Notes under the pieces: generated by a model
What the model saw: only the letters and a program-made list of their open reading frames with translations
Database searches by the model: none
Told to the model about the DNA's origin: nothing
Shown here: piece after piece, positions 1,118-27,500 of the stretch
How positions within the stretch are numbered: position 1 is the stretch's first letter
Layout of the letters: the number at the start of each line of letters is the position of its first letter
Program-made: the position numbers and the translations under genes
IMG/VR virus record: IMGVR_UViG_3300012920_009192
Span: 1-28,370 of that record
DNA length: 28,370 bases
DNA from: a virus
Reading direction: 5' to 3' (one strand)

Positions 1118-4100
1118 ATGGACGTAACTAGCAACATTGACTTGTTGGACGACGAAGAGGAAGAGAAGAAAAGTCCTCTAGACACCCAAACAGTCCCACC
1201 ATCTCTTTCCAATGTCTTTTCTAGCCGACAAGAGCTAGACACGGCGATATCCAACTTCGTTCCCGACAGTTATTATAAAGACGCGCGCGACCGCGTAAGC
1301 AAAACACGCGAACTGTTAAAGTCTAGCGAAGACCGAATGAAGCCCCTTTTACAAGAAATGGGCACGTTTAGAGATGAGCTAAACGACACGGCTAACGACA
1401 TCCCGAAAGAGAACCGTGTACCCTTTTGGGCAGACCTAGAAATAGAAGACGCGGACAATTACATTAACGAGATAAACAACGAGTTCCAAAACTTTGAAGA
1501 CACCAAAGACGATAACGGATTTCTGATTTTTGGTGGACAGGGCGCGGAACGCTCTGCTCGCGCACTTCCTTTGCGGGGCAAGTGGGACGGAATAGTTTCC
1601 AAGTACAGTAACGCCAAAGCGGACAACGAGATAATCAGACAACAACACGAAGAGGCTACCGCGTACAGAGACGAGTTTACCAAGCGCTACCTCACCATGT
1701 CCGACCCTCAACGCAGGGCTCTTCAAGATTTGTGGGAAGCGCAGAACCCCGACGTAGACGAAACCACAAAGGCTAGGGCACGCTCTAGAGTATCGTCCAC
1801 CGCAGGATACGACCCATATGCAGGCAGTACTTTAGATATTTTGGGATATGCCTCCAAGGCAGCGCAAACCCGCCGATCCATCCACAGCCAATCCAACTAT
1901 CAAGCCGAGCTTCAGCGTGAATACGATTTGGCGCGTGAAGCTGAAAAGCGCGGATTACGGTTCACTAAAAACGGCTACTTTGCGGGCTACCCGATGAATG
2001 TCAGCGAAGACGAAGCCAAGATTCTCTCCACACATAAAAACAACCCCGACAAAGCCATAGCCGATTTTGGCGAAGACGCGGTCGATAAGGCAAGATTTTC
2101 AGAAGTGTTTAACGCTACCGTGCTAGACTACAGAACCGCCCACAATAATGTGATGATGGCGGAGTCTAGCGGAGACGCCAAAAAACTAGAAAAAGCCGAA
2201 GCCGAGTTTGCACTCGCAAAAATCACCATGCGTGAAGCTCTGATAAAGGGCAACGATATGCAGATGTTGGGCGAATTGGTCGGTCGTATGCAAAGTAAGC
2301 AAGAGTACGGCTTGATGTCTAATCTCATGGCGGAAATAGGCAAAGAAGCGCAAACCGACAGTCAAGCGTCCGCTTTTGAAAACGGGGCTAAAATGGGCTT
2401 GTTGCAAACGATGCAGAGTTGGAGTGCGTTAGCCCAAGACATTGGACTAACATCGGACAAAGACCATGTAGCAAAACAGGCTGAGTACGCTGCGCAAATG
2501 CGCATAGCCCCCACACCTTTACGCTTGGGAGACATACAAAGCGCGGGAACGGCGATGGACTTCGCTACCGAAATGGTGGCTACAATGGGCACACAGTACG
2601 GCGCATCTTTGCCTGCGGGTTTAGCTGCGGGCTACGGCACTAAGAAGATGACGCAGTTTGGCGTGAACGCATTGGAAAAGCTTTCCAAATCGTCCGTTCT
2701 CAAAAGAGTGCCTCTCTTACGAGGCGCGCTACAATTTTCCAACGAACTGCTTAAAACTAAAGCGGGCAAACGGCTTTTGGGAGCAATGCCCGTTTTTACG
2801 GGAGGCGCAGCCACTAGTTATGTAGCCAACTACGGCGGTGCGTATATGGAAGCAGCGCAAGCTGTCAAAACGGAAACTGACCCCGAAGGCATTGATCTGA
2901 TGAACCAAGAGGCGCATTTGCGTCTGCTACACAATCCCGAAGCCGTAGCACAAGTTAAGAGAGGAGCGCGGGGCAAAGCGGGAGCGATATCAGCCATAGA
3001 AGGACTGACTTTCTTTGCAGGCGGTTTGACGTCGCAAGCGATGCTCAAGATGGGCGCTAAAGGTACTGTTATACCCACTATAGCAAGAGGCGTGGTTGAC
3101 GGAGGCATGGGATCAGCTAGTGAGGTAGCGGGACTGTACGCCATGCACCAAACTATGGGCATGGAACAGCCTTTTCTTTCTTTTGAGAAGAATGCCAAAG
3201 GTGAGTACGAGTTTGGCGGTTATCTCGCTGAAAACATGGAAGAAGTCATTATGGAGGCAATAGGCGGGCCTATTGTTGACGTATACCAAACGGGACTCAG
3301 TAAAGCTTTCACCTACACGGGCAAGAAGTACAATGAAGCGCAGGGCGCTATAAAAGACACTCTTGCCGACAAGAATTTTAATAAGCAATTAGAGTCTATG
3401 GCTCAAGAGGTCTTGGACGCCGAAGCGGGCGAAGAGAGCTCTCATAGAGGAAGCGTCATAGCGGAAGACGCCGTCACCGAAACCGAGTACGGTAGTACGG
3501 GAACTATAGACATGGGGCAGGGTAAGAAGTACACCACCCACACCGCAAAAGATGACGAGTCTTTGATTGGTTTACTGACTGACCGACTTGGCGAGGGCGC
3601 TTTGGGCAAACGAGAAACTAAGTTCTTGGATTCTCTTTTTACCGCGCTACAGGAAGCAGGCGGGGCAGAAGTAAAAGAAAATTGGCGGAATATGCGGATT
3701 GTATTCCGTAATGACTATGCAGAAACTACTCCGAAGGGGGAGGCACAGCCCCCAATGCAGTACAGCCAAAATGCCAACACGCTTTTCATAAACACTGATG
3801 CTAAGAGCAACTACGGCAGCGTAACGAACAAACAAGTAGACGTAGAGACAGGTAAGGTGCGAGACGAGCGTTCCTCCCTGTTAGCAAACATCGTACACGA
3901 AGTCGGACACTTCAGTGAGCGCTACATGGTAGGTGACGCGCGCGTGAAGGAGATGTTTGAAAAGATTGACGGTAATTTTAAGAGCAAGTCAGACGGTAAA
4001 AACCAAGGTATGTTCATGGCATTCTTGGAGTATAACACCGAGGCAAAGAAACGAGCGTTGGCAGGATCGCCCGATGCATGGGCGAAAGAACGCGATGCTT

Positions 4101-7100
4101 TTTACGCTCAGTACGAGAGCGACGACAATTTTGCACGAGTCGCCAAAAGCGAGTGGTGGGCAATGCAGTTTTCCCGTGTAGCGCAGAAGCGCACCGAAGG
4201 CATGGACAAAGGCATTGTCGGGATGATCAAGAATTTGTACAAAGCTCTCCGAAAGCCTTACAGAGACATGATGGGCAACGCTAAACTCAGCAACGCTGAA
4301 GTGGATGCGGAACTGTCTGAGATGTTTGGCTTTCGTCCCGAAACATCCCCTACCAACACCGTAAATGAAAGCGGTGAAACGGAAGCCCCCGACCCTCAAA
4401 AACTAGCGGAAAACGCAGCCGACTTGGCGAGCCCGACTGTAGAACCCGTAAAGGAAGAGCAGACAGATGCAGAACCCGACGCTTTTGACCAAGATCAAGA
4501 ATTGGCTATTCCCGAACCGAAAAAGAAAAAGAAAGCCAAAGACCCCGTTTCGACCGAGCCCACGACAGCGGAAGTACCTAAATCGACCGAGCCACCCAAA
4601 AAGACCAAGACCCCCGCAAAGAAGACCCCGAAAAAGGCAAAGCGCAAGCCCACGCCCGAAGAACAGTTAGCTAGACAAACCAAGACAAAGAAAACTGCTG
4701 CGCTAAAGAGAATCGTAACCGCAGCCAAGTCTACGCCCGAACAGGTAGACGCTGCGCTACGGGAAGCGCGTGACAGAGTCAGAAACGACCCCAATTCCAA
4801 CGCTCAAAAAGTGTTGGATGCTTATAACGCCAAAACCGAACGCGAGAAAAAGAGGCAAGAAAAGTTAGATCAGATCAAGCGGAATGAAGAGTATGCCACT
4901 ATGGCGTACCAAGACCCGAAAAAAGCTTTGGGCAAGAATTCAAAAGGGTCACCTTTACTAGAAGACAACGCATATTTTAACATAAATAAAAAGGGCGAAG
5001 TTATCGGCATACAAGACCCCAAAACGGGAACTTGGGTGGGCATTGAGCCCGCGAGCAAACGAGGACGTAAAACAAAGCCTTCCGAGCAAATGCAGTTAGA
5101 TTTGTTGGACGCACGCGCTGCTCGAAACGAAAAAATTACAAAAGTTAATAAAAATCTCCGCGCTAAACAGGCTGAGTTGGTTAAAGCTATGGATGTAGCT
5201 TTTGAAAAGAATAACAACAAACCCAACGATGAAACTCGTGCGCTTTTCGGAGAGTATCAGAAAGTTACTGACAGGCTTAAAAAAGTATCCCCTTACGCTT
5301 TTGGTGCAAAGCGCGTGATGAAAAAGACCGAGCGTATTCAGCGGTACAGAGCAAAAACAGGCAAAGTACCTATCTTAGACGGAGAAGGACAAGATAACAC
5401 ACCCGACTCAAAACAGTTAGCAAAAGCTTTGGGTGGCAGTCAACAAATACAGTCGGGCATGGAGACGGGTCATAACTACACCACAAAAAGCGGAGTAGAG
5501 GTTACGTTTAATGACAACGCCAACCCCATGTACTTCAATGCTGACACTAAAGACGAAGTACAGCTTGGGGGCGACGTAGAGTTAAATTTTATAGGAGTTC
5601 CCGAACAAAAAAACCGAAGAAAAGGCGCAGCGGGTAAAGAGCTTGATCGCATACTAGCCAAGGCAGACGAGCGCGATATGTCTATACAGCTACTGATCGA
5701 CCCGTACTCTACGGGCATGGCGGAAGGCGGAATGACTGCTCGGCAGTTGCGGAAGTGGTATGCAAGCAAAGGATTTATATTTCAAGGAAGTAACCCCAAT
5801 GGGTACAGACCCCGCGTTTCGGAAGACCCTCCTAAACTCGTTACTACGGACGACACTCTAGACGCTAGAGATACTATCACTTCAAGCGACGACTCTAAGG
5901 CAGTACGGCAAGTGTTTTCGGAAAAACAAAGCGCACGCATTGATACTCTTGCGGGCAAACTTTTGCCCTTTGAGCTTCGTCGAAAGTTAGCAGAAGCTCC
6001 TATTGCAAAGACCGAAGCCGAAGTCTTGGGCAAAGAAGTGTGGGACTCGTACCGCCAAGCTGCGGAAGCTCAGATACGCGACACTACTTTTAAGCAAAAA
6101 GTTTTAACAGAAATCGTTAAACGCAAGCAACCCAATGCCTCTCCGCACCAACGAGCGCGGAAGGTTATGGAGATCGTAGAAGACTCGGACGACACTCTTA
6201 ACGCTAGAGGTACGGTCAAGGGAGCGTTTTACAGCAGACGAGTTCCCAAAATCAAAGAGATAATGGTCAAAGCGTCTTCAAACCCACAACCTCCTGTGAA
6301 CCGTAAGATCGTAAAAGTGGACGTGGAGAACTCTCAAAGAATCGCTGATTTATTTGATGCGGGGGTCAACGCTCCAAACGACCCTAAAGTACGTGAAGCG
6401 TATGTGGCGATGGCTAGAGAAACCGAAAAGCAGTACGAAGTTATGGTTGAGGCGGGCTACAAAGTAGAAATGTATCCCGATGACGGCGAGCCCTATAAAA
6501 GCAGTCCCGAAATGCTTGATGACGTCATTGACAACAAGCATATGTGGATTTTTGGAACTGAGTCGGGCTACGGCGAGGAAGGCATCACTGAAGCTCAACG
6601 CGCTGTTGACCCACTACTCGCCAAGACCAAATACAAAGACGTGAACGGCAAGACAATGTTGGTAAATGACTTGTTCAGAGCCGTCCACGATTTCTTTGGA
6701 CACGGCGAACGTTCAAACAGTTTTGGAGCTTTAGGCGAGGAAAATGCGTGGGACGCGCACTCACAGATGTTTAGCCCACTAGCGCGTCGCGCTATGACTA
6801 CGGAAACTCGTGGGCAAAATTCGTGGGTAAATTTTGGAAAGCACATTCGTCGCAAAGACGGCACGATGCCGAAAAAAGGAGACCCCGACTATAAGCCTCT
6901 AGCAGACAGACCGTTCGCAGAGCAAAAATCCTTTTTACTTCCCGACGATGTGGTATTCCAACAGTGGAAAGATGAGCAAGCAGAAGTGGACGACGGTCTC
7001 GGCTTTATAGAATTAGAAGACGACACTCTAGACGCGCGGGGCACGTTCCAAAGATACGAAGACCCTAAAGACAAAAAACCAAAAGCTAAAAAACCCAAAG

Positions 7101-10100
7101 TTAAAAAGCTGAAGCTCACTTTAAAAGATAAGTACGACATCGACAAATACGAGTTTGAGATTAAGGAGACTAAGTTCGATAAGAACCACATAGATCGCGG
7201 TTGGTTTATGCTCGACGGTCGGTTTATGAACATCGGAGAAAATTACCATACAGACGCCCTTGTGCGTTTAGCTAAAGCGAATCTCGACCACCCGCACATC
7301 CAACATATGTTGGAGTACAAGATCGAAAACATGGATTTTGACTACGGCAAACCCGACGACGCTGCGCTTGAACGCCAAGCCATAGAACAGCTTTCTTACG
7401 ATGAAGCCATGCTTGCGGGCATGATTCGGGTTGAAATCCAAGGTAAAAGAATTTTCTTGGAGGGTCGGGGAACTTTGCCTCCGAACGAGGTTCGCGTTGC
7501 CGTTGAGTTGGCTGCGATCGAGAGAAATAAAGAAGTTTATTGGGAATCATATGGTACTAGAGCTCCCGCAAAAAAGTTGTTCCCCGACGACTCGTGGGAT
7601 GTATTGGGCGCACGCCCCACAAATTGGGTTTCTAAAGTTTCAGACGAGCACGATGCACTCAGAGTTGGGACTGCCAAACTAGGGAGCACTAGAAAGCCCA
7701 TACCTACTACTGCAAATGACAACTTAACCAAAGAGCGAGTCCCTCGAAAAGTTTTTGAAAAACAAATGCAACAGTTGAATGATCTGAAGCATTTGCCCGC
7801 ATCCATTCGTAGACTACGCAATCCCGATAAGAAATACGAAGCAGTCGTGGAGTTTTTCAAAGACAATCTGTTGGCTTTGCATGACAAGTTTGACCAACGC
7901 GACCGATCGCGCGCTACGCATTGGTATGATGGCGCTAGAACTTTGGCTGAAAATATCAGCAAAAAATTTACATCGACAAAAGAAGAACAGGCAGCGGGAG
8001 TTATCGCAGCGCTCTCACCGCAAAACGATTGGTTTCAAAATGTAGCGCAGGGCGAACAGCTTGTTGCCGTGTGGAACAATGACAAGAACACTCCGATCAC
8101 CGAAACATTGGTCAGAGATACTTTAGAAAGCATGGTCAGACGAACCACGCTGTCCACATCCGTCACCAAAGGTAAGACAAAAGAAGAAAAGGATGCGCTA
8201 TTAGCATTGGCAAAAGAAGGGCGTAGGGAAATTTTAGAAAGCGTTTTAAACACAACGATTGGGAAAATACAAGACCCCAAGCAACAGGCATGGGCAGCGC
8301 GTCTCATGGCAGAAACTCGTTTCGGTAGAAACTACCAAAACCTTAACCCCGAAGGTCTGTCCATCGGCATGGCGATCAACGACGGTGGCGACCTCTCCAA
8401 TCATGCATGGGGAGGAGCGGGCGACATTGCAAAAGCTTTGAGTGCGCTAAAAGATGGCTCTTTGGAAAACATCACGGAAATGCTTGGTAACAAGCACAAA
8501 GTAAGAAGCTTTTTTAACAACATAATAGCACCCAACTCTCCTTTCGGAGACGTCACAATCGACACCCACGCAGTCGCAGCAGCGCACCTCTTGCCAATGG
8601 CAGCGAGTTCTTTAGCGGTTAGTCAAAATTTTGGCACTAATATGGCGGGTTCTCCCGCACAGGGAATCAATGGTGGATATCACATCTATTTAGAAGCATA
8701 TAGGAGGGCTGCGCGCGAGCGTGATATACAGCCCCGACAAATGCAATCAATCACATGGGAAGCAGTTAGGCTCTTATATCCAAAAGAGGAGAAAGGTTCT
8801 AAGCTTGCCCAAATGCAGAATGTATGGAATAATAATGAAGATGTCACAGCAACAAGAGCCGAACTCCTCAGTCAAGAAATTGGTAGACCAATATGGAGTC
8901 TCGATGGACAGAGCGATGTCCTTGGAGCACGAGCTCCGTCCGTACTACGAGAAAAGGTTGGGCAAAAAGCTAACGTTGGAACAAGTCCACGCGATCGACA
9001 GCGACAAGCCTCTAGACGGGGATCAAGAATCAACGGAATTGAGTTAGACCCACGGGAAGACCCCACAGGTTTTAACAGAAGAATTTTTGATGACACATTA
9101 GGCGCGCGTGGACTTTATGCTACTACGCCCGACAAATTTTTTGCAAATGCGAGAGCAACCTTGTCAGCCTCTCAGCAAGTCTTTCTCGACGACAGTCTGT
9201 CTATAGTTGAGCGGTTAAAGCAAACCGTTGAAATTTTTGGCGACCCACTTCGTCGCAAAGTCCAAGACAAAATGTTGCCCGTCAGAAGGCTCATAGATGT
9301 TTTGGAAGAAGCTAAAGGCGGAACGTTTAAAGACGATTTGCAAACTTATGTAAAGCACGAGAATTATCACGGCAGAACGGGCGCAGCGCTTACTAACCAC
9401 AGCGAAGACTTTGAATTGCCTATAGCGCAGAGTGTAGTAGACAATCAGATAAACGTAGAAGTTTTGGACGATGTGATGCATTTGCGACACGCCCAAGAAA
9501 GAAACGCCGTTAATCGGGAGCAAAACAAAGTGGTCACCGTCAGTTACAGGAGAGCGGGCAGACTTGTCACAAAATCTTTCAAGGGCTACGGAGCGGACGC
9601 CAAAGCACGCGCTTTTTCCACAGGTTTTAAAGTCTCTTGGGTAAACACCTTTGCCGACGGTACTACCGAAACTAAGACCAAAGAATTTGCAGAACAGGCT
9701 AAAGCGGAAGCGTTTGCAAAGAAAAAACTCAAGAGGTCTCAGAAACCAAACTGGCCTAGACAGGGTAACGTCAAACTAGTAAAAGGACGCCTCACAGGTC
9801 GCACCATTTCGTCTAAAAGCACCGTGGAAGCGGGTTCGGGATACACTGACGACACTGCCAAGTTCGCGTTGGCATTAAACAAGAAAGCGATCGAACAACT
9901 ACACAAAAAAGGCGAGATTAACGACGATCAATTGGAACGCATCACCCGTATGATTGACGAAGTTAAAAAGAATCCAAACGGCTTAAAAGCGTACATGGAT
10001 ACCGCCAACATTGTGGACAAAATGAACCGAGCTTCTTTGGAAAGACAGTATAAGTCGGGACTCATTGCCAAAAAGGATTTTGATCGCATAAGAAAAGCTT

Positions 10101-12415
10101 ACAAGCACTTCATACCACTAAGAGGTTGGGAAGAGGTTTCTGCTTACTACGAGCACTCCAACATGGATGTTAAGAACCTTTTAAACCAAACAATGCCCGC
10201 CATCAGCAGGGGCATGAACACCATGAAGCACAAAATGAGAGCTTCATCGGGTTTACAGGAAGGAACAATGGTTTCCAACCACCTCGCATATGCGTTCGCT
10301 CTAGCGCGACAAGGTATAGTGGAGTCTGAGAAAAACGAGGTCATGCGTTCTTTCTTTGATCTAGTGGCAACTGCACACAAAGACCCTGCCCTCAAAGGCA
10401 TGGCTAAAAATTGGTTCAGCTACACCAAAGGTCTTATGATTACAACTGTCGGAAAAGACGGCAGACCTAGAAAGCAACTAGACCCCCGTTGGAAAGATGA
10501 TCCTAATGTGATCGGCATGAAAATAAACGGTCAAACCGTAGCCATGCGATTACAGGGCGATCGCCTAGACGGAACTAGTTCCGTAGCGCGCGCTCTCAAA
10601 AATTTGGGTGCAGAAAAAACGGGAGCTTTTGTAAGAACCGTAAAGTTTACCACCCGTTGGATGGCTGCGCTACGCACTACACTATCACCCGCATTCACCC
10701 CCGTTAACTTTGTTCGGGATTGGGGCATGGGCTTTTACTCTATTAAAGGGTTGGAAACTGACTTTAAGGAACAAATCGAAAGAGGCGAAATCACTGAACA
10801 AGAGGTGGACGATATAAAGTCAGAAGCTCTTAAAAACCTGTATAATCCGAACATATTGAGGAAGGCTTTCCAAGGAGCGGTACACCACTCTACAGGCGGT
10901 AGGGGCATGGACGTCACCCAAGGCATACAGAAGCTAATAGGCAAAAAATTCACTCCTTCAGCAGAAACTCTCAAATGGTCTGCAATCTTTAAAGACTTTT
11001 CAGACAACGGCGGTAGGATACAGCATTTTGGATTTTCATCGGTACAGAAAACTGCAAGCTCTTTTGGGGCTTCCGTGCGAGAGCTAGACCCTAACGATCC
11101 TCAGAAAATCAAGTCTTTCATAAAAGGCGCGTATGATTTTATGGACACTTCAAGTGGCGCGATTGAAAATTTAATCAGAGTCACGACTTATGACGCTCTC
11201 GTGAGAAAGGGTATCAGTAAGCAAAAAGCTGCGAACATGGCTTTGAACTTGACCACCAACTTTACACGAAAGGGGGAGTGGACTACTGCGCTAAACGGTA
11301 TGTACTTGTTCTTCAACGCGGGCGTGCAGGGCAGTTACAAGGTTTTGAGCACCGCGTACCGCGCACCAAAAGCTAGAAAGTTCTTAGGAGGAGCAGTGTT
11401 GCTAGGCTTTATGAACTCTTTCATAAACCGCATACTGTCAGACGAAGACGAGGAGTTGGAAGCTTCATCGTGGGACAGAGTCAGCCCGTACAGTAAAACC
11501 CATAATCTACACTTTTTCTTACCCTCTTTCGGTGAGAAGCACGCAAAAATACCTACACCTTACGGAATAAACGTATTCACATCTGCGGGCACTCTTTTAG
11601 AAAACGTTGTTTTCGGCGACATGAAAGTTGGCGACGCAGCGATGACGTGGGGCTCTACTGCGCTAGAAAGCTTTAGTCCGATAGGCGGATCTTCTATGGC
11701 ATCAGCCTTGACGCCCACCGTGCTTCAACCCATCACGGACTTGGGCATGAATATGGATTACAAAGGTGCGCCCATTTACAAAGAAGATCATTTTAACAAA
11801 TCCACTCCCGACTCGTCACTACATTGGTCTAGCACTTCGGAACTGTCCAAAAGCATAGCCCAAGGATTGAATAAACTCACGGGAGGAGACTTGGAAAGGG
11901 CGGGAGGCATAGACATCTCTCCCGACACCATTGATTATATGGCTAATCATATTTTCGGCGGTTTGGGAGGCTTCTTAACCCGTTCTGCGGATTTCGGAGC
12001 TAAGATCGTTAGCGATGAGAAAGAAGCGCCTAGCCTTAACGATATTCCCATTGTACGTAGATTTTTAGGCGACGAGACGGCTTATTACGATACGGAAAAG
12101 TTCTACAAGCTTATAAACATGACCACAAACTCACAGGCACGCATAGATCGCTACCGCAAGGAAGCCTCGTCGCCCGAAGAGCTTAGAGCCGTCTTACTGT
12201 ATGAAACTCCGCGAGCCAAGTTACATAAATCGTATACTCGAAACATACAGCCAAAAATTGCAAAAATTCGTAAAGACATAGAAGCAATCAGATCAAACAA
12301 AAACATGACAGGTCAGCAGAAGCACGATCAGACGGAACTTTTGAAGAGACGACGCAAAGTGATTATGAACCAACATCTAAAACAAGCAAAACGCTTGGGA
12401 ATAGACGATTATTGA
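1118..12415 (+). CDS. Giant 3765-residue polyvalent-type phage protein with metallopeptidase, GNAT-like, HDFFGH and LPD38-like regions
   Basis: One uninterrupted frame of 3765 codons. Domains seen by eye: an acidic, coiled-coil-prone N-terminus (1-200); an Ala/Gly-rich hydrophobic stretch (about 480-680); a zincin-type HEVGH at 927-931 with a possible third ligand E1012; a Lys/Pro/Thr-rich linker (about 1130-1200); a GNAT-like block (about 1455-1565, RRKGAAGKELDRIL then WYASKGF); a domain with HDFFGH at 1857-1862 followed by GEENAWDAH and RGQNSWVN; a possible HhH-GPD glycosylase-like region (about 2225-2590, with IDTHA near 2479 and GGYHIYLEAYRRAA near 2518); and a C-terminal third resembling LPD38 of polyvalent proteins (FVRDWGMG near 3198, NAGVQGSYK near 3400, SWDRVSPYSKTHNL near 3451). 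Linker motifs of DD-T-L-x-A-R type start at 1578, 1691, 1968, 2157, 2599 and 2658. Phage polyvalent proteins are thought to be packaged and injected; applying that here is inference. It lies just upstream of the portal operon. Confidence 0.85.
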   Translation: MDVTSNIDLLDDEEEEKKSPLDTQTVPPSLSNVFSSRQELDTAISNFVPDSYYKDARDRVSKTRELLKSSEDRMKPLLQEMGTFRDELNDTANDIPKENRVPFWADLEIEDADNYINEINNEFQNFEDTKDDNGFLIFGGQGAERSARALPLRGKWDGIVSKYSNAKADNEIIRQQHEEATAYRDEFTKRYLTMSDPQRRALQDLWEAQNPDVDETTKARARSRVSSTAGYDPYAGSTLDILGYASKAAQTRRSIHSQSNYQAELQREYDLAREAEKRGLRFTKNGYFAGYPMNVSEDEAKILSTHKNNPDKAIADFGEDAVDKARFSEVFNATVLDYRTAHNNVMMAESSGDAKKLEKAEAEFALAKITMREALIKGNDMQMLGELVGRMQSKQEYGLMSNLMAEIGKEAQTDSQASAFENGAKMGLLQTMQSWSALAQDIGLTSDKDHVAKQAEYAAQMRIAPTPLRLGDIQSAGTAMDFATEMVATMGTQYGASLPAGLAAGYGTKKMTQFGVNALEKLSKSSVLKRVPLLRGALQFSNELLKTKAGKRLLGAMPVFTGGAATSYVANYGGAYMEAAQAVKTETDPEGIDLMNQEAHLRLLHNPEAVAQVKRGARGKAGAISAIEGLTFFAGGLTSQAMLKMGAKGTVIPTIARGVVDGGMGSASEVAGLYAMHQTMGMEQPFLSFEKNAKGEYEFGGYLAENMEEVIMEAIGGPIVDVYQTGLSKAFTYTGKKYNEAQGAIKDTLADKNFNKQLESMAQEVLDAEAGEESSHRGSVIAEDAVTETEYGSTGTIDMGQGKKYTTHTAKDDESLIGLLTDRLGEGALGKRETKFLDSLFTALQEAGGAEVKENWRNMRIVFRNDYAETTPKGEAQPPMQYSQNANTLFINTDAKSNYGSVTNKQVDVETGKVRDERSSLLANIVHEVGHFSERYMVGDARVKEMFEKIDGNFKSKSDGKNQGMFMAFLEYNTEAKKRALAGSPDAWAKERDAFYAQYESDDNFARVAKSEWWAMQFSRVAQKRTEGMDKGIVGMIKNLYKALRKPYRDMMGNAKLSNAEVDAELSEMFGFRPETSPTNTVNESGETEAPDPQKLAENAADLASPTVEPVKEEQTDAEPDAFDQDQELAIPEPKKKKKAKDPVSTEPTTAEVPKSTEPPKKTKTPAKKTPKKAKRKPTPEEQLARQTKTKKTAALKRIVTAAKSTPEQVDAALREARDRVRNDPNSNAQKVLDAYNAKTEREKKRQEKLDQIKRNEEYATMAYQDPKKALGKNSKGSPLLEDNAYFNINKKGEVIGIQDPKTGTWVGIEPASKRGRKTKPSEQMQLDLLDARAARNEKITKVNKNLRAKQAELVKAMDVAFEKNNNKPNDETRALFGEYQKVTDRLKKVSPYAFGAKRVMKKTERIQRYRAKTGKVPILDGEGQDNTPDSKQLAKALGGSQQIQSGMETGHNYTTKSGVEVTFNDNANPMYFNADTKDEVQLGGDVELNFIGVPEQKNRRKGAAGKELDRILAKADERDMSIQLLIDPYSTGMAEGGMTARQLRKWYASKGFIFQGSNPNGYRPRVSEDPPKLVTTDDTLDARDTITSSDDSKAVRQVFSEKQSARIDTLAGKLLPFELRRKLAEAPIAKTEAEVLGKEVWDSYRQAAEAQIRDTTFKQKVLTEIVKRKQPNASPHQRARKVMEIVEDSDDTLNARGTVKGAFYSRRVPKIKEIMVKASSNPQPPVNRKIVKVDVENSQRIADLFDAGVNAPNDPKVREAYVAMARETEKQYEVMVEAGYKVEMYPDDGEPYKSSPEMLDDVIDNKHMWIFGTESGYGEEGITEAQRAVDPLLAKTKYKDVNGKTMLVNDLFRAVHDFFGHGERSNSFGALGEENAWDAHSQMFSPLARRAMTTETRGQNSWVNFGKHIRRKDGTMPKKGDPDYKPLADRPFAEQKSFLLPDDVVFQQWKDEQAEVDDGLGFIELEDDTLDARGTFQRYEDPKDKKPKAKKPKVKKLKLTLKDKYDIDKYEFEIKETKFDKNHIDRGWFMLDGRFMNIGENYHTDALVRLAKANLDHPHIQHMLEYKIENMDFDYGKPDDAALERQAIEQLSYDEAMLAGMIRVEIQGKRIFLEGRGTLPPNEVRVAVELAAIERNKEVYWESYGTRAPAKKLFPDDSWDVLGARPTNWVSKVSDEHDALRVGTAKLGSTRKPIPTTANDNLTKERVPRKVFEKQMQQLNDLKHLPASIRRLRNPDKKYEAVVEFFKDNLLALHDKFDQRDRSRATHWYDGARTLAENISKKFTSTKEEQAAGVIAALSPQNDWFQNVAQGEQLVAVWNNDKNTPITETLVRDTLESMVRRTTLSTSVTKGKTKEEKDALLALAKEGRREILESVLNTTIGKIQDPKQQAWAARLMAETRFGRNYQNLNPEGLSIGMAINDGGDLSNHAWGGAGDIAKALSALKDGSLENITEMLGNKHKVRSFFNNIIAPNSPFGDVTIDTHAVAAAHLLPMAASSLAVSQNFGTNMAGSPAQGINGGYHIYLEAYRRAARERDIQPRQMQSITWEAVRLLYPKEEKGSKLAQMQNVWNNNEDVTATRAELLSQEIGRPIWSLDGQSDVLGARAPSVLREKVGQKANVGTSPRDRQRQASRRGSRINGIELDPREDPTGFNRRIFDDTLGARGLYATTPDKFFANARATLSASQQVFLDDSLSIVERLKQTVEIFGDPLRRKVQDKMLPVRRLIDVLEEAKGGTFKDDLQTYVKHENYHGRTGAALTNHSEDFELPIAQSVVDNQINVEVLDDVMHLRHAQERNAVNREQNKVVTVSYRRAGRLVTKSFKGYGADAKARAFSTGFKVSWVNTFADGTTETKTKEFAEQAKAEAFAKKKLKRSQKPNWPRQGNVKLVKGRLTGRTISSKSTVEAGSGYTDDTAKFALALNKKAIEQLHKKGEINDDQLERITRMIDEVKKNPNGLKAYMDTANIVDKMNRASLERQYKSGLIAKKDFDRIRKAYKHFIPLRGWEEVSAYYEHSNMDVKNLLNQTMPAISRGMNTMKHKMRASSGLQEGTMVSNHLAYAFALARQGIVESEKNEVMRSFFDLVATAHKDPALKGMAKNWFSYTKGLMITTVGKDGRPRKQLDPRWKDDPNVIGMKINGQTVAMRLQGDRLDGTSSVARALKNLGAEKTGAFVRTVKFTTRWMAALRTTLSPAFTPVNFVRDWGMGFYSIKGLETDFKEQIERGEITEQEVDDIKSEALKNLYNPNILRKAFQGAVHHSTGGRGMDVTQGIQKLIGKKFTPSAETLKWSAIFKDFSDNGGRIQHFGFSSVQKTASSFGASVRELDPNDPQKIKSFIKGAYDFMDTSSGAIENLIRVTTYDALVRKGISKQKAANMALNLTTNFTRKGEWTTALNGMYLFFNAGVQGSYKVLSTAYRAPKARKFLGGAVLLGFMNSFINRILSDEDEELEASSWDRVSPYSKTHNLHFFLPSFGEKHAKIPTPYGINVFTSAGTLLENVVFGDMKVGDAAMTWGSTALESFSPIGGSSMASALTPTVLQPITDLGMNMDYKGAPIYKEDHFNKSTPDSSLHWSSTSELSKSIAQGLNKLTGGDLERAGGIDISPDTIDYMANHIFGGLGGFLTRSADFGAKIVSDEKEAPSLNDIPIVRRFLGDETAYYDTEKFYKLINMTTNSQARIDRYRKEASSPEELRAVLLYETPRAKLHKSYTRNIQPKIAKIRKDIEAIRSNKNMTGQQKHDQTELLKRRRKVIMNQHLKQAKRLGIDDY
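8835..9047 (+). CDS. Possible overprinted 70-residue protein inside the giant gene (+1 frame)
   Basis: Within the giant gene, the +1 frame holds an ORF starting at ATG 8835 or ATG 8841 (M-K-M-S-Q-Q-Q) and ending at TAG 9045-9047. Its sequence looks like a folded helical protein (for example DRAMSLEHELRPYYEKRLG followed by KKLTLEQVHAID). The giant frame over 8936-9050 is an unusual Arg/Ser/Gln-rich stretch that looks more like out-of-frame translation. However, the giant frame carries the recurring DVLGAR linker at about 8915-8932, so that frame is also real. The start has only a weak purine run (GGAAT) upstream. Two explanations are open: a true overprinted gene, or a chance open frame opposite a disordered linker. 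I cannot separate them without homologues. Confidence 0.25.
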   Translation: MKMSQQQEPNSSVKKLVDQYGVSMDRAMSLEHELRPYYEKRLGKKLTLEQVHAIDSDKPLDGDQESTELS

Positions 12416-12669: not shown

Positions 12670-14676
12670 ATGAACACTACAAGCCTTGTATTAAATGAAA
12701 AACAAGAGGCAAAACTCTTAGAATATGTAGAAAAGAGGTTAGCTTCTTTGGAAGATGACAACAGGGATCGCATATTAAATGACGAGCACTCTTGGCAAGT
12801 GTATCACAATGAGCGCGCAGACAGGGAACAGCCCGACAGTATTTTTGAAAAATCAAATGTTTCCGTTCCCTTGACCACATTGGTAGTGGATCACTTCGTG
12901 ACTCGTGCGGAAGATGACATAACGGGACAGACGCCTTACGTAAAGTTTGATGCGCAAGGGTCTTCCGACATGAAGCAGGCACAGGATTTTGACCGATACT
13001 TCAATTGGAAACTTGAGACAAAAGGTAAAAACCGTCGCCTGTTGGAAGATGCGTATTTACAGGCTTTTGTTCAGCGCGCAGCGATTCTCAAAGCTACGTA
13101 CAAGGCAGACATTGCACAGTACACGGATCGCGAAGCACGAGTCTTGTACGCCATAGGCTCTTCTGAACCCATTGTTTTAGAAAGTATCGGATTAATAATT
13201 GAGGGTGAGGCGGAGTTCGTTCAAATAATGAACCCCGCAACACAGATGCCCCAAATGGTTTTACAAAACGACCCTAGTTTCGTTTTTGACCCCATGCAAC
13301 ACGAGTTCCGCGAGTATACCAAAGGTATCGATATGCAGACAGTGCGCTATAAAGGGCCTAAGACAGCTTTAGTAGATTATGACCGCTTTTTAGCACCAAA
13401 TGACGTAGTGTCGTTAGAAGACGCGGACTTTCTAGCAGAAAAATACGACAAACCTTTGGCATGGGTGGAATCAATGTTCTTGCAACGCGATTTTTATTCG
13501 TATGACGACTACAAGAACATGGTCAAAGACAAGACCACGGCAGAACCAAAGACCGATGGGTATCGAGAACGTGAAAACAGAGAAAACTTAGGCTTCGATC
13601 GAGACGATCCAAAACTAGAAATCATCGAGTGTTGGATCAAAAGAGACGTTCTAGGCACAGGAGTTCCTCAAGAATTCTGTTTCTTTTACGACCCTCTCTG
13701 CAAGAAAGCCATCTACTACGAGTATGTGCAAAAGATAACCCCCGACAAAGCTATTCCATACTCCATAGTGAGCATAAACAGGGACAGAAACAGGTGGTGG
13801 GGCCCGTCTCTCCCCGAACGCATATCAACTTTTCAAGAGTTTATAGACAAACAGTTCAACTCGCAGGCTTTCCGCAATGAAATAAGCGCCAATCCTGTGC
13901 TAGGAGCTAACCCACAAGCGCTAGAAGAAGAACCCGATGATGTAGAGATTCATGCAGGCAAAGTGTTTACTTTGAAAGATCAGTACAAAATGCAGGACTT
14001 TCTCTCCGCCATTGAGATACCCAATCAAGACAACAAGACGCAGAACTTGATCGACTTTGTTTTCAGCGTAGTTCAGTTATGGTTAGGCGTGAGCAATCTA
14101 GCGCAGGGCGATATGCAAGTGCTACAACCCGCCACTACAGCCACAGGCGTCGAGGCTACTTTGAGAGAAGCTTCCAAGATCGGCAGACGGTGGTTGCGTA
14201 GGATCGTAGAGCAGTTTGAAGAGCATCTTACCAAGTTAGTCGCCATAGAGTGCGCTACTTTGGATCAGAAAGAAGTTTTTGAATACATGGAAGGAGATGT
14301 GAGAACGTTTGCGGAGATGAATCCCCGCGATCTTCAAAACCTTTCCACCAACGTCACAATAGAAGTTTCACAGGAACAGGGACAAAGGCAGATTGAAAGA
14401 GCCGACCTCGCACTCAAATCTATGGACAGATACTTTGCGTATCCACCCGAAATGCGCGCTTTTGTGAAGCCGATGATTCGCGAGATTATAAAAGCTTTGG
14501 GCTATGAGAACGCAGACGAGTATCTGCCCGACCAAGCACCCGATGTTCCTAGAGACGAGGAGGGAATGCCCAACGACAAGGCGTTACAAAATTCGGGAAT
14601 GTCTGATGCCGTTCGGGGGAAAGGTAACTCCAATCAACAAGGAGCAAATCAGTACACGGAAGGAAGGGGAGCGTAA
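12670..14676 (+). CDS. Portal protein
   Basis: A 668-residue protein of the size and pattern of podovirus-type portals, the dodecameric ring at the capsid vertex through which DNA is packaged and ejected. Recognisable portal features include the central block NRDRNRWWGPSLPERI (about residues 370-388), followed by a long helical EFIDKQFNSQAFRNE stretch, and a TTATGVEATLREASK block (about 487-500) leading into the C-terminal crown helices (RRWLRRIVEQFEEHLTKL). The last 45 residues are a low-complexity tail rich in Asn, Gln, Gly and Asp. The ATG at 12670 follows a T-rich leader with no clear Shine-Dalgarno site. The stop overlaps the next start (TAATG at 14674-14678). The scaffold and capsid genes downstream fit a head operon. 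I am confident of the function, less so of the exact portal subfamily. Confidence 0.9.
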   Translation: MNTTSLVLNEKQEAKLLEYVEKRLASLEDDNRDRILNDEHSWQVYHNERADREQPDSIFEKSNVSVPLTTLVVDHFVTRAEDDITGQTPYVKFDAQGSSDMKQAQDFDRYFNWKLETKGKNRRLLEDAYLQAFVQRAAILKATYKADIAQYTDREARVLYAIGSSEPIVLESIGLIIEGEAEFVQIMNPATQMPQMVLQNDPSFVFDPMQHEFREYTKGIDMQTVRYKGPKTALVDYDRFLAPNDVVSLEDADFLAEKYDKPLAWVESMFLQRDFYSYDDYKNMVKDKTTAEPKTDGYRERENRENLGFDRDDPKLEIIECWIKRDVLGTGVPQEFCFFYDPLCKKAIYYEYVQKITPDKAIPYSIVSINRDRNRWWGPSLPERISTFQEFIDKQFNSQAFRNEISANPVLGANPQALEEEPDDVEIHAGKVFTLKDQYKMQDFLSAIEIPNQDNKTQNLIDFVFSVVQLWLGVSNLAQGDMQVLQPATTATGVEATLREASKIGRRWLRRIVEQFEEHLTKLVAIECATLDQKEVFEYMEGDVRTFAEMNPRDLQNLSTNVTIEVSQEQGQRQIERADLALKSMDRYFAYPPEMRAFVKPMIREIIKALGYENADEYLPDQAPDVPRDEEGMPNDKALQNSGMSDAVRGKGNSNQQGANQYTEGRGA

Positions 14677-15260: not shown

Positions 15261-16118
15261 ATGAGAACCGTAAAAATAGAAGATTTACCATTAACCACGA
15301 ATGTCGCCCCTACTGATGAGATACTTGTAATACAAAACGGAGAGGTTAAGCGTGCGCTAGTTTCCACTATCACGCAACTTGATGTTTCTTCGCCTAGCTC
15401 CTCTAGTTTAAGCTCGCCTTCTAATTCGTCTAGCGCATCATCATCTTCATCAGCTTACTCAACATCATTTTCATCTGCGAGCTCGTCGCCTTCGTCGTCA
15501 TCTCTATCGGACTCTTCGTCGGCTTCCTCTTCATCGAGCGGAAGTAGTTCTCCATCATCTTCATCGAGCCCTAGTAGTAGCGGATCATCTTCAGCGAGCC
15601 CTAGTGGATCATCTTCAGCGAGCCCTAGTGGGTCAGCTTCAGCGATGAGCACTAGCGGATCAGCCTCCTCAACTTCAGAGTCCATATGGAACGGAATACT
15701 TCTCAATGAAGACCTAGACGATTTGGACAGTGATGGCGTGCCCGACAATTGGACAGTCGAAGGCGGTACTTTGGACGCCTATGAAATGGGTAATGGCAAC
15801 GTGAAGGGCGACAATGGCGACGTTACCATAAAAGCAGTTTTACAACCGTCAGTGGGACTCACTTCGGGCACATATACGGTCACAGCTACTCGCGTTGACA
15901 GCGGTTCGGGAGGCGTTCAACTACGGACTAACGCACCCGTTACGTGGTCGGGAGCGACCAATCAAAACGGGCACACACAAGATTTCGCATGGTCGCCCGC
16001 CATAAACCAAATTAGTTCCTTTACTTTCACGGTAGGCATTACTCCTATTACCGAACTAACTGTGAACACGGGCAACGGTGGGCATATAATCTCATCCATA
16101 ACCATAGTAGAAGATTGA
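15261..16118 (+). CDS. Fibre-like virion protein: anchor, serine-rich linker, beta-sandwich-like C-terminal domain
   Basis: A 285-residue, three-part protein. Residues 1-40 (TVKIEDLPLTTNVAPTDEIL then VIQNGEVKR) resemble a short N-terminal module common on phage fibres and decoration proteins. Residues 42-141 are a ~100-residue linker made almost only of Ser with Pro, Ala and Gly, encoded by mixed Ser codons. From 142 on is a beta-rich domain that starts with the calcium-binding-type motif DLDSDGVPDNW and continues with alternating strands (TVTATRVDSGSGGVQLRT), like carbohydrate-binding beta-sandwiches. It probably displays a binding domain on the virion. That reading is inferred from architecture. 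It shares the serine-linker plan with the genes at 16933-17891 and 21544-28341. The stop overlaps the next gene's TTG start. Confidence 0.7.
   Translation: MRTVKIEDLPLTTNVAPTDEILVIQNGEVKRALVSTITQLDVSSPSSSSLSSPSNSSSASSSSSAYSTSFSSASSSPSSSSLSDSSSASSSSSGSSSPSSSSSPSSSGSSSASPSGSSSASPSGSASAMSTSGSASSTSESIWNGILLNEDLDDLDSDGVPDNWTVEGGTLDAYEMGNGNVKGDNGDVTIKAVLQPSVGLTSGTYTVTATRVDSGSGGVQLRTNAPVTWSGATNQNGHTQDFAWSPAINQISSFTFTVGITPITELTVNTGNGGHIISSITIVED
15582..15665 (+). repeat. 24-bp tandem repeat in the serine linker
   Basis: Two identical 24-bp units (15582-15605 and 15606-15629), each encoding G-S-S-S-A-S-P-S, followed by a degenerate third. Linker length here could change by slippage or recombination without breaking the frame. 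Confidence 0.85.
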
Positions 16119-16932: not shown

Positions 16933-17343
16933 ATGACGACACCTAAAGACTTATTCGGAGCGAGTTATTCTGCCGATAGCAGTTCCATAACTATAGCATT
17001 GGCTGATTTGTTGCCTGCGGGCGAGCTAACCGCTTTAGAAGCCGACGCCAACAACGGCAACGGTTTGAAAGTAGCGTACGCTTTGATTAAAACTTTTTCC
17101 GACAAGCTTGCGGGTCTGAGTGACCCCCCTACGAGAGTATCATCTTTTGAAGGTTCGTACTCCACCAACGCTGACGGCACGGTTTCTCGCACATACACAC
17201 AGACTTTTGACTTTTCTGTAGGCGATGTAGCGGACGAGCCCGACGTTTCTTCGCCGTCCGCTTCTGAGTCCGATTCTGCTTCTGTTTCTGTTTCTGTTTC
17301 TGAATCCGCTTCTGAATCTTCTTCCCCTTACGGGGGAAACTAA
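16933..17343 (+). CDS. Fibre-like protein, short form and N-terminal part of a -1 frameshift product
   Basis: The unshifted product is 136 residues: a compact N-terminal domain (about 1-100, containing ALADLLPAGELTALEADANN and a beta-like RTYTQTFDFSVGDV) followed by the first 30 or so residues of a Ser-rich linker, ending YGGN and TAA. A Shine-Dalgarno GAGGA sits 7 bases before the ATG. The linker is cut in mid-course: the same Ser-rich composition continues in the -1 frame directly past the stop. A GGGAAAC heptamer at 17334-17340 (codons GGA-AAC), a 6-base spacer and a hairpin at 17347-17377 form a standard -1 frameshift signal. The shifted product would be 319 residues. The N-terminal domain probably attaches to the virion; I do not recognise its family. 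Confidence 0.8.
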   Translation: MTTPKDLFGASYSADSSSITIALADLLPAGELTALEADANNGNGLKVAYALIKTFSDKLAGLSDPPTRVSSFEGSYSTNADGTVSRTYTQTFDFSVGDVADEPDVSSPSASESDSASVSVSVSESASESSSPYGGN

Positions 17344-21543: not shown

Positions 21544-24500
21544 ATGGCTAACGAATACATTCGTCCCGTCGGCAAACCTATTGTCGAAAAGAGTACAAAC
21601 GGTCTTCGTAAGATCACCCGTCGCTATGTGGTTCACGGGCCTTCTAGCGGAGCGATTACCGTAGAAGACAGAGTCTTCCTACCGTTTTGCACTGTAGACG
21701 AAGAGTACACGGAAGCTTATCTAGTTCAACAGAAGTTGGAAGGTTCGCAAGACGCGAGCCAAGACGTTTTAGTTCGCACTTATTTGGAGGTCAATGACCT
21801 ACCCGCAGAAATTGATCCACCCGATTATGTAAGAGACGGCGTGGGGCGTGTGCGTGTTTCAAAAAGCTATATAGTAAAAAGCCCATACAATTCAGCTTGG
21901 TCGGAAGCTCGTGTGGGTACGGAAACTTGGACAACTCCCAATGGGGACGAAACCATACTCGCAAAGGTTACTTTCGATGACAAAACTTGCTACGCCGAGT
22001 ACAAAGAAGATTACTACCAAATAGGCATTATTTCTTTTAAAGAAGAGGTTAAGCATAACGGTAAGCTTAAAATCAGAACCTACAGGTCTATAGGACTTGA
22101 GACCGCTCAAGACTTCCTAGACGAGGCTAATTTAGGTACGGATTGGGTGTTAGTCGAGAATATGTCGGGAGCGGGCTCTGCTGACTACCAATACGGGGGT
22201 TTGGAGGTCAAAACATGGACATTGGTAAAAGGAGCGGGTCGCATTGTCTTGGAACAGGAAGACATGGGCTCTGCCCAAATAACTACCGAAGTTATCATTG
22301 TTCCCGACGAAGAATCTTACGCACCGTACAGCGACATACCGCCCAACCAAGTTTACGAAACTAAAGTCGAGGACAAGCAGGGCTACGATTTGTGGACAAT
22401 AAGTGGCGTTGTGGGGCAGGGTGAGATTGACCGAAAACACGAAGTTCGATTTAACGGTGCGCTAGAAATAATCACCATTAAGAATATTGGTCAGCAAAGC
22501 ACTCCGCCTGCGGGTTTTGTGCGCGTCTCCGAGAAGCATGACCAAAGTGGGCGCTATGATATTTTTACGGATGTTTACGTTAAGGGGCTTGGGCTAGTTT
22601 CTGAGGAAGAGGAAGATAAGGGAACTGCTCAAATCACCACACAGGTGTGGATTACGCCCAATGGAGGCAATCCACCGCACACCATACCCGCTAATCAAAT
22701 TTTTGAGACTAGAGTCGAAGAAAAAGACGGCTACGAGATACACACAATCCGAGGAGTAATCGGACAAGGTGAAATCGAGAGGCGTGAGGAAACTAAGCAC
22801 AACGGCGCGTTATCTATAGTAACGATAAAGAATATTGGACAACAGTCCGTTCCTCCTGCGGGGTATGTAAGAGTTTCCGAAAATTTTGATCAATCGGGAC
22901 GCTTTGACATTTTTACTGATGTTTATGTAAAAGGGCAGGGGCTGATCAGCACTTCCGAAGAAGATAAAGGAACTGCTCAGATTACCACCGAAGTTCACAT
23001 TGTTCCCAATGGCGGAGCTCCCGCGTCCGCAATCCCTGTAGCGCAAGTTTTTCAAACTAGAGTAGAGGAGAAAGACGGCTACGAAATACACACCATCAGC
23101 GGTGTAGTAGGGTCGGGTGAAATAGAGAGACGCGAAGAGACTAAGCACAACGGCGCACTCTCAATCATTACCATTAAGAATATTGGTCAACAGAGCCCCG
23201 TTCCTGCGGGTTATGTGCGTGTTTCGCAAAATTACGACCAATCGGGCAATTTTGATATTTTTACAGATGTATATGTGCGTGGACAGGGTTTGATCACCAC
23301 GGAAGAGGAAGACAAAGGCACGGCGCAACTAGCCACGGAAGTTCACATAGTTCCAAATGGCGGAGCGCCTGTATCTAACATTCCGCCCAATCAAGTTTAC
23401 GAGACAAAAGTTGACGAGCGAGATGGTTATGAAATCCACACGATTAGAGGTGTGGTGGGAGCAGGGGAAATCGACAGAAAACTAGAAATTAAGCACAACG
23501 GTGCGCTAGAAGTTCTGACAATACAAAACATTGGACAGCAAAGTCCTATACCCGTGGGCTATGTTAGAATTTCCGAAAAATTAGACCAATCGGGAAGGTT
23601 TGACATATATACGGATGTGTACGCAAAGGGTGCGGGACTTGTTTCCGTGTCTGAAGAAGAAAAAGGTCTTGCAACAATAACCACCGAAGTATGGCTAACA
23701 GAAAACGGGGGAAATCCCCTTACAACGATCCCCCAAGGTCAAATCTACCGAACAACCACGGAAGAAAAGGACGGGTACGAAATCCACACGATTGTGGGAG
23801 TGCAGGGACAGGGAGAAATCGACAGGAAGCTAGAGACGAGGAAACAGGGTGCGCTAGAGATACTGACGATTCAGAGCATTGGAGCGAAAGCCCCGAATCA
23901 AGTTGGTTATACGCGCGTCAGCGAAAGAAACGACAAAAGCGGAAATTTTGAGATATTTACGGACGTTTTCGTAAAGGGAGCGGGTAGGATACAAACATCC
24001 AAGACTACAGGTTCGGGAAACACGATTCGCGAAACAGTAACCTACCTCACGGCAGACGATGAGCCTGTCCCGCAAGGGTGTGTCACCGCCCAAGACATTG
24101 AGGACAATGACGGCTATGTTCTGTACAAGAAAACGTACACATCTTCGGCAGGGGTTGGTGCGCTAGTTACATCAACACGGACTGATCAATATGGTATTTT
24201 TTACCCAACGGTCACAGAAACCGCCAACAATCCTCCAAACTATCCGAATAGCGTAGCAATAACCGCGAAGCGCGAAACACGACTCAATTGCTTGGACGGT
24301 CAGAATGCGATCACGGAATACGAGTACACATTTGCAGTCCTCCCTGCCGATCTTGAAGTGTCAAGAAGTGTCAAGACATCGGGCAATGTGAAAACCACGG
24401 ACATTGTTACTATCAACAATCCCCCACAGAATAACGGATGTATCTTAGCCGAATCGGACAGAGATTTGTATGATGTCGATGGAGTAGCCTACGCTACCAT

Positions 24501-27500
24501 ATATTCAAGGACTTTTGTTGAGGGAACGGGGGCAATCTCTGAGAGCGTCTCTACCTCAAACGGAATTACTAAAAGAGTCAAGAAGACTGTCGGTAACGTA
24601 CCTCCCGCAGGCGGTTGCGTGGTTTCAAAAAACGAAGAACCAATCGTAGACATAGACGGCAATGACTGCGCTATAGTTTATACTTATGCCTTTTTGGAAG
24701 TTCAGCAGGGTGAGTTGGAGCGCACAGTATCTTCTAGCGGTGGCGTCACCAAAACCCGAATACGTCAAGCGGGACAAGCTCCCAATGCTCAAGGGTGTCT
24801 AGTTGCCAAAAAAGAGGAAGAGATAAAAGACATTAACGGGCAAGTTTGCTTCGTAATATACGACCACACATACGCCGACGGACAGGGAGAAGTTAGTCGA
24901 TCAGTTTCTAGTAGCGGTGGCATAACCAAGACTACCATTAAGTCAATTAAAGTCCCTCCCGCAGGGCAGGGCTGTCTAGTGGCGAAAGATGAGGAAGAAA
25001 TTCAAGGCATCAACGGGGCGTGCTACACCATTTACACATACACTTTTGCCGAAGGTGCGGGAGAGTTGGAGCGATCGACTTCCTCTAGCGGAGGCATCAC
25101 TAAAACAAGAATTAAAACAATAGGCGCAGCGCCCGCAGGGCAAGGATGCATTGTCGGTCGAAGTGAAGAAGAAATAAAAGGAGTAAACGGTCGGTGCTTC
25201 ACGATATACGATTACACGTTTGCAAGCGGTCAAGGAGAGTTAGAACGGACTGTATCTTCTAGCGCAGGCATGACTCGCACTCGCATCAAAAGTTTGGGAC
25301 AAGCGCCACAGGGACAGGGATGCGTAGTTTCAAGAGGCGAGCAAACTACAAAAGACGCGAACGGACAAGACTGCTTGACCGTATACACTTATGAATTTCT
25401 AGATGCAGGCGGGGGCGAGATGGAGAGAAGCACTAGAACTAGCGGAGGTCTCCAAATACAGCGAATAAAATCCGTAGGACAAGCCCCCGCAGGGCAGGGT
25501 TGTTTAACATCAAAATCAGAAGAAGAGATAAAGGATGCGAACGGACAGGTTTGCACCACGATATACACTTACGAGTTCACTTCGGGACAGGGAGAGCTAG
25601 ACAGATCGGTCACAACTTCGGACGGGGTTACGCTGACGAAAGTTAAACAGTTTGGAGGCGTTCCCGCAGGGCAATGCGTTACGCAAAGTTCTAGCGAAAA
25701 CGTGTATGATATAAACGGAGGCGTTTGCGACACCATAGAAACTAGAACATTCATGGGTTGGCAAGAGGGGATTTTGTCAAAAACGACAAAGACAGGCCCC
25801 GAAAATATGCTCATTACTACCATTGTCAGCACCAACCAAGGAGCAGGCGCTCCCGCAGGAGGTTGCGTAATGGGCGAGGGCACGAAAGAGTTCAGAGACA
25901 TAGACGGCAATATTTGCTTTACGCGCTACACCACTACATACGGGACAGCGCCTGCAAATGGTGAAATAGAAAGAACTACTCGCAGTGGTGGCGGTCAGTC
26001 GATCACAACGATTAAAGCAGTTGGTCAAGCTCCCGCAGGGCCTGGGGGCGCGTGTCAAACGGGCGAAAGTAAAAAAGACATCATGGATATGGACGGAAAC
26101 GTTTGTTTCTCCGTATACACCGCAGAGTTTACGCAAGGCACGGGCATGATGGATGATAAAGCCACAACACGGTCGGACGGCGGTTTGGAAATACGCTCTA
26201 GAGCGCGGGGGCAAGTTCCTCTCCCACCCACAAACAATGCGTGCGTTTTAGGCAAAGCCGAAGAAGCTGTTTACGATAAAGACGGAAATCAGTGTGACAC
26301 GATATACACTTGGACTTACCTCGTCCCACCTAGCGGACATATAGTGTCCGAGACATCCAATACGAATAGCAACGGCATCACCGTAACTACGATTGTGGGG
26401 GCAAACATTGTGCCCCTTCCGCCCAATGGAAACTCTTGCTTAACGGGCGAGGGCGAAAAGGTCGTTAACGATATGGACGGCAACGAGTGTTACACAATAT
26501 ACACTAGAGAGTTTTCTTCGGGCAGTGGAATTATTCGGGAAAGTGTACGTTCTTCGGGAGGTCTTACTTACCGCACGATTAAAAGCGTTGGTAACCAACC
26601 TCCCCAAGCAAACGGCGGGTGCTTGACTGCAAAATCCGAAATTCAGCACAAAAGTAAGGACGGTAGTGTTTGCTACACGGTCTATGAATACGAGTTTCTA
26701 GCGCAGACGACTTATAAAGTATTAGAACAAAGCGTAGATTTGGGAAGTAACGGTTTGAAAAAAACTACTACCAAAACTTTGGAAGCTCCATACCAAGGGC
26801 AGGGCTGTAAGGTAGGAGAAGGTTCTTACGACATCCAAGGCGTAAACGGTAAGTGCGCTACAGTGTACACAACGCAACACGTGGAAGGCATGGGCGAATA
26901 CGATCGAGACGTTTCTCCAAGAACGGGATATTCCATTGTAACTATCAAATCAATCGGACAACCTCCGCAACCTCCTAACAACCAAAGGTGTTTGTTGAGC
27001 AGTTCTGAAGTTGATGTGCAGGGAATAGATGGCTCTTGCTTTAAGAAATATAACTACCAATACATTGTAGGCGAATATGGCAAACTGCTAAGTACGACTT
27101 CTCGTTGGAGCGAGGGCGTTCTATACACAACAAAAAGACAAATGGATCAAGCTCCCGCAGGGCAGGGCTGTAAGATAGGGGAATCTACGGACGAAATAAT
27201 CGGAGAGAATGGGGTCTGCATTACCATATATGAAACTACTTTTGCAGAAGGGCAGGGCGAAGTCGATCGAAGCGTTACGACAAGAGACGGTATAGTGTTT
27301 ACGACCATAAAAAGCATTGGTCAACCTCCGCAAGGAGATGGGTGTCTTTGGTCTAAGGGAGAGACTACTAGGCGAGGTATGGACGGCGCTAGTTGTTACA
27401 CTATATACAATTACACTTTCGCAAAAGGCTACGGAGAAGTGAGTCGAACAACGAGAACCGATGGTTGCGGAATCACGTACACGACCATCGAATCAATAGA

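Follow-up and report, generated by a model that had tools for sequence, protein, structure and literature searches.

The stretch of DNA analysed here (the window) is the virus record IMGVR_UViG_3300012920_009192, 28,370 bases long. Its plus strand encodes a giant protein of 3765 aa (1118..12415), and the gene adjoins that of a portal protein (12670..14676, plus strand). Both portal and major head protein families were matched by PHROGs downstream of the giant ORF. Within the giant protein, Pfam placed an LPD38 domain at residues 3451–3646 (11468..12055, E 7.2e-40) and the best stretch of DUF7178 at residues 2243–2321 (7844..8080). PHROGs matched phrog_3170 at residues 1760–1917 (6395..6868), besides long C-terminal matches. 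Residues 927–931 (3896..3910) read HEVGH, a zincin-type metallopeptidase motif that was assigned by the motif only, as no Pfam zincin match was found over the giant protein. All these features lie on the plus strand. The combination of an LPD domain with several unlike modules (LPD38, DUF7178, phrog_3170 and the HEVGH motif) points to a protein of the polyvalent type. The Pfam matches thus bear out the sequence-only reading, which had proposed such a protein and had noted HEVGH in the same chain.

Some further features of the window and its modules were recorded. The core of the phrog_3170 module (6395–6868), HDxxGH...GEENAW...TRGQNSW, is invariant, and viral contigs very commonly carry the module, with more than 599 stretches; this core may resemble the metal-binding HxxxH of aromatic amino acid hydroxylases. 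The DUF7178 module (7685–8899, residues 2190–2594) appears as a high-confidence helical domain in an AlphaFold2 model. Fold searches of the PDB gave no match at E 0.001 or better, the best for the DUF7178 module being an insignificant one to an archaeal 8-oxoguanine DNA glycosylase (E 0.07). A protein of 2265 aa with many similar repeats and a long C-terminal serine run is encoded at 21544–28341, and serine-rich runs also occur in the ORFs at 15261–16118 and 16933–17343. The AT skew is positive along nearly the whole window, at about 0.2 and reaching 0.40, which amounts to a strong excess of A on the coding strand.

A short sequence, referred to here as the tag, recurs in the giant protein. 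Tag 1 is DDTLDAR (residues 1578–1584, 5849..5869), tag 2 is DDTLNAR (residues 1691–1697, 6188..6208) and tag 3 is again DDTLDAR (residues 1968–1974, 7019..7039); the phrog_3170 module lies between tags 2 and 3. Tag 4, DDSWDVLGAR (residues 2157–2166, 7586..7615), precedes the DUF7178 module, and tag 5, SDVLGAR (residues 2599–2605, 8912..8932), stands at the exit of that module. Tag 6, DDTLGAR (residues 2658–2664, 9089..9109), is found just before the conserved C-terminal part. All six are encoded on the plus strand and occupy exactly the residues of the 1118–12415 translation at which they had been reported, residues 1578–2664 corresponding to 5849–9109. The repetition is real: across 20,000 residue shuffles, the pattern D.L.AR (seven occurrences in the protein) averaged 0.109 and never exceeded 3, and DDTL.AR (four occurrences) averaged 0.0005 and never exceeded 1. 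In an unbiased scan for 4-letter gapped patterns, the protein ranked sixth, with a score of 2.9e-6 compared to 0.0019 for the best shuffled protein. A doubtful seventh copy, DLLDAR (residues 1328–1333, 5099..5116, plus strand), may not count, since AlphaFold2 puts it in a helix (pLDDT about 81–87). The flanks around the tag copies are unrelated (mean identity 0.08), and the tags are therefore not a duplicated linker. Low-complexity sequence, which had been described next to the motifs in general, is clear, by eye, beside one copy only, that at 1968.

The position of the tags was examined in two AlphaFold2 models, covering residues 1300–2185 (mean pLDDT 63) and 2140–2720 (mean pLDDT 77). All the six copies noted earlier are located within stretches with pLDDT below 50 or border on one, in keeping with the claim that they mark module boundaries. 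Copies 1–4 and 6 fall within such stretches (in tag 4 the WDVLGAR part; in tag 6 all except the last residue, which is just outside), and copy 5 begins two residues ahead of one, the stretch starting at its third residue. As about 31% of residues 1300–2720 are below 50 (computed from the listed segments), six out of six would be expected by chance with a probability of about 0.001, if differences in linker composition are ignored. The first model had many aligned sequences over the phrog_3170 module alone, and low pLDDT in the rest of it may partly reflect a scarcity of relatives. The models thus place six of the seven copies within, or bordering on, what would be exposed linkers between folded modules, and the seventh within a modelled helix.

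L171, a locus from a contig of 67.8 kb, encodes a full-length homologue with 3763 aa. The first 1100 residues of the two proteins are 53% identical, a C-terminal stretch is 77% identical and the portal proteins (that of the window carries no tag) are 88% identical; HEVGH at 927 is also kept. In contrast to both ends, which align, the middle of the L171 protein aligns poorly, and a variable module region of the window protein (about residues 1320–2640, 5075..9037) differs largely between the two. An ART-PolyVal domain occupies residues 1475–1621 of L171 and is not found by Pfam in the window protein; one middle module (window residues about 1990–2150) is common to both by eye. L171 has six tags of the form ELGAR, ILGAR or EFGAR, two of them at the places of window tags 4 (aligned with GMELGARPTN) and 6 (aligned with GDELGAR). 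The arrangement of motifs at module edges hence recurs in this relative despite largely different modules. It may be noted that L171 was counted as tagged mainly through this alignment, its score in the blind scan (0.006) being worse than that of the best shuffle (0.0019). The search for further relatives of the window lineage gave, beyond the contig already known, three distant loci, and none among genome contigs.

Giant proteins of other lineages were gathered by three module-based scans of viral contigs, each of which took up to 80 loci from a larger number of matches. The gapped-pattern scan was run on 176 non-redundant proteins of at least 1200 residues, again among the matches listed, and 18 of these beat the best shuffled score (0.0019). 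Ten of the 18 were judged tag-like by eye (the window protein, L117, L090, L128, L157, L106, L165, L068, L136 and L104); the other eight comprise repeat proteins, runs that are clustered or of low complexity, and unclear cases. The tags differ from lineage to lineage. LxASxAxP occurs nine times each in L128 and L106 (one L106 copy begins with I), FALDP or YALDP six times in L157, LFGG (LFGGA) five times in L165, DDIRRMPE three times in L068 and DIRYSRAKP three times in L248. The tag is QxAAxR in L117 and NYSIG in L136, and L105 has a TFSIA-like one. In ten tagged giants, none of 59 tag starts falls inside a Pfam or PHROGs stretch, compared to 7.5 expected; these pattern starts represent 56 tags, the three of L248 being counted twice, and L106, L105 and L090 are outside the count. 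When related giants were checked for the motif at domain edges, as had been suggested, it was the position that recurred and not the motif itself, as lineages carry their own tags. The pattern D[IVT]x[YF]SR was tried as a common tag and rejected: with only six copies in 211 non-redundant giants among the matches listed (1.0 in shuffles), it is one tag among several. PLxRFG, the name of a related Massilia plasmid protein, was also set aside as an earlier account of the tags: in NCBIfam, neither P0001 nor L171 matched a family of that kind. Another kind of inter-module repeat was seen in the L090 ORF at 9433, where KYNENHDARGQF occurs five times in a 1289-aa protein with a phrog_3170 module.

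The sequence that follows the recognisable end of an ART domain also varies by lineage. The ART end and the tag read NPNI-LGARKG in L171, SSDI-RFALDP in L157, SDSI-LRASGATP in L106, DERI-LFGGAESD in L165, SDDI-RRMPE in L068, SANI-NYSIG in L136 and SPDI-RYSRAKP in L248; many other ART ends in the same comparison show no obvious tag. A first test of tag sharing (at least four of five residues identical) was discarded as confounded and replaced by anchor-recurrence and flank tests, because its downstream control was also raised. Over 39 sites, ART-end sequences recur in their own protein 36 times, where other proteins give an expectation of 15.2, with flat controls inside the domain (12 and 14.3 expected) and beyond it (16 and 15.1). 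The starts of DUF7178 recur 31 times compared to 10.7 (22 sites; controls 8 and 11.8, 10 and 8.9). The phrog_3170 anchors were not clean (51 compared to 26.9), as the controls were also up (39 and 25.0, 40 and 27.7). For the flank test, 37 candidate ART sites were dropped and 22 kept, from which L103 and L121, judged tandem, were removed by hand to leave 20. The N- and C-terminal flanks of these single ART domains scored 20.0 compared to 15.8 on re-pairing, a value reached in none of 20,000 permutations. Two controls were flat, and a third, which paired the C flank with sequence lying farther upstream, was mildly raised (72 of 20,000). Both sides of one ART domain tend to share the tag of their own protein.

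These results bear on another explanation, in which the tag is no more than the final strand of the ART-PolyVal domain and is copied along with it. Many ART ends do read D-I-x-[YF]-S, and the window tag starts similarly with D-[TV]-L. However, one and the same ART end leads into different tags across lineages, tags also follow non-ART modules and the window protein has no Pfam ART match, which makes this explanation extremely unlikely.

The codons of the tags were compared next to the residues. In the window, the same codon is used in 30 of 107 residue-identical pairs (0.28), where codon usage would give 0.33. The codons thus show no excess similarity, and synonymous positions vary freely, so the repetition is kept at the protein level. 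Values near expectation were also obtained for L128, L106, L157, L165 and L117, slightly higher ones for L136 (0.59 vs 0.49) and L090 (0.67 vs 0.55), and values well above expectation for L171 (0.51 vs 0.31), L068 (0.90 vs 0.38) and L248 (0.74 vs 0.33). A DNA-level repeat or recombination signal was accordingly ruled out for the window by the codon test, and may apply to L171, L068 and L248. A related proposal is that linkers travel with their modules during shuffling, the tag being a relic of insertion with no job in the protein. Modules clearly shuffle, and the alike codons of L068, L248 and L171 fit copying there. In the window, on the contrary, unrelated flanks (0.08, as above) and randomised codons mean that the residues were kept while the DNA drifted, and we consider a mere by-product of shuffling quite improbable.

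Within the sequence examined, the tags are confined to the giant protein. Outside it, the window has a single plus-strand match to the tag pattern, NFNAR in the frame at 17315, and no tag was found in the portal or MCP ORFs. In the other contigs, several of which were available in part, tags outside the giants occur only in short frames of 101–270 aa, which with one exception are antisense. This has a bearing on whether the tags could be read by a general prohead protease, one that trims capsid proteins as well. There is a precedent in phage P1, whose prohead protease Pro, according to the accessible text of PMC12810830, cuts DarA as well as the capsid protein. Against it, an HK97-type S78 prohead protease was found in none of 11 records, some of which are fragments, and the capsid genes of the window are without the tag; such a general protease is a very unlikely reader of these sites.

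A candidate protease within the chain itself was also considered. HExxH is present in nine of 12 tagged giants, HExxxH only in L165, and neither in L136 and L090; the ORFs of these three may be incomplete. For a zincin, the most natural place of cleavage would be ahead of a hydrophobic residue. In most tags this residue would be L, F or Y, which would not put the cut after the Arg. The sequence-only reading had envisaged termini after the Arg; as a general rule this is not favoured, because most other lineages have no Arg at the equivalent place (FALDP, LFGGA, NYSIG, LxASxAxP).

Taken together, the tags behave as marks that would be read by something phage-specific, and we infer cutting to be the most economical reading. 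Our leading explanation, which we hold to be about evenly balanced, is that they are lineage-specific inter-module recognition tags, most likely sites of proteolytic processing and plausibly for the zincin of the same chain. Cutting at the tags would divide the giant virion protein into separate effectors, and the same-chain zincin could plausibly do the cutting; the act, the agent and the timing are what we infer. Such cutting fits the proposal, in the accessible text of Iyer et al. (2017, PMC5512222), that zincins process polyvalent chains. A fuller version, in which every lineage has its own private punctuation code, modules that are brought in take on the tag of their new protein and a matching protease, which could be the same-chain zincin, frees them, is possible and put forward only tentatively. 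Counted against cutting are the HExxH gaps in L136, L090 and L165, the full-length virion RNA polymerase of phage N4 discussed below, the weak scan score of L171, the alike codons of L171, L068 and L248, the mildly raised flank control and the unclean phrog_3170 anchors.

A real rival, which we rate as unlikely, is that the tags are docking or threading handles, bound by a portal, scaffold or ejection protein for head loading or for pulling the modules singly through the tail channel, with no cutting at all. The linker position, the lineage specificity and the selection at the protein level would fit it equally. The N4 polymerase is also in its favour: in the accessible text of PMC12633501, this giant protein with an HExxH motif is ejected and was seen at full length, with no sign of degradation on expression, and HExxH therefore need not mean self-processing. 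Handles would nevertheless leave unexplained why tags are placed at module ends and not anywhere in the chain. The N4 protein resembles the window protein in size and in its HExxH motif and has a long low-complexity linker; it differs in that no repeated tag is reported in that text.

As for the preferred reading of cutting at the tags, there is a likeness with viral polyproteins, which are cut at repeated short sites. In both, a short lineage-specific sequence is repeated at module boundaries. In contrast to those systems, cutting at the tags is a prediction here, the candidate protease is an HExxH motif and the capsid ORFs examined carry no tag. Polyvalent proteins as described by Iyer et al. 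are likewise very large, multi-module, encoded near head genes and provided with LPD38 and HExxH, but no inter-module site motif is given in the accessible text of PMC5512222, whereas the giants described here have a repeated, lineage-specific tag. A search of open-licence full texts, a scope that most subscription papers fall outside, gave no description of such tags. How polyvalent effectors act separately after delivery is a standing question, for which processing was only proposed in 2017. The tags predict, lineage by lineage, exactly where the chains would be cut or held, and they help to locate the borders of modules in proteins for which family searches give little annotation. If cutting is confirmed, they would provide matched pairs of protease and site. 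A protein of Caulobacter phage Jess A (L270:13210–19329) could serve as a cultured test case, if a weak one with just two flanking copies: LTQGE precedes its ART domain and LAQGE follows it.
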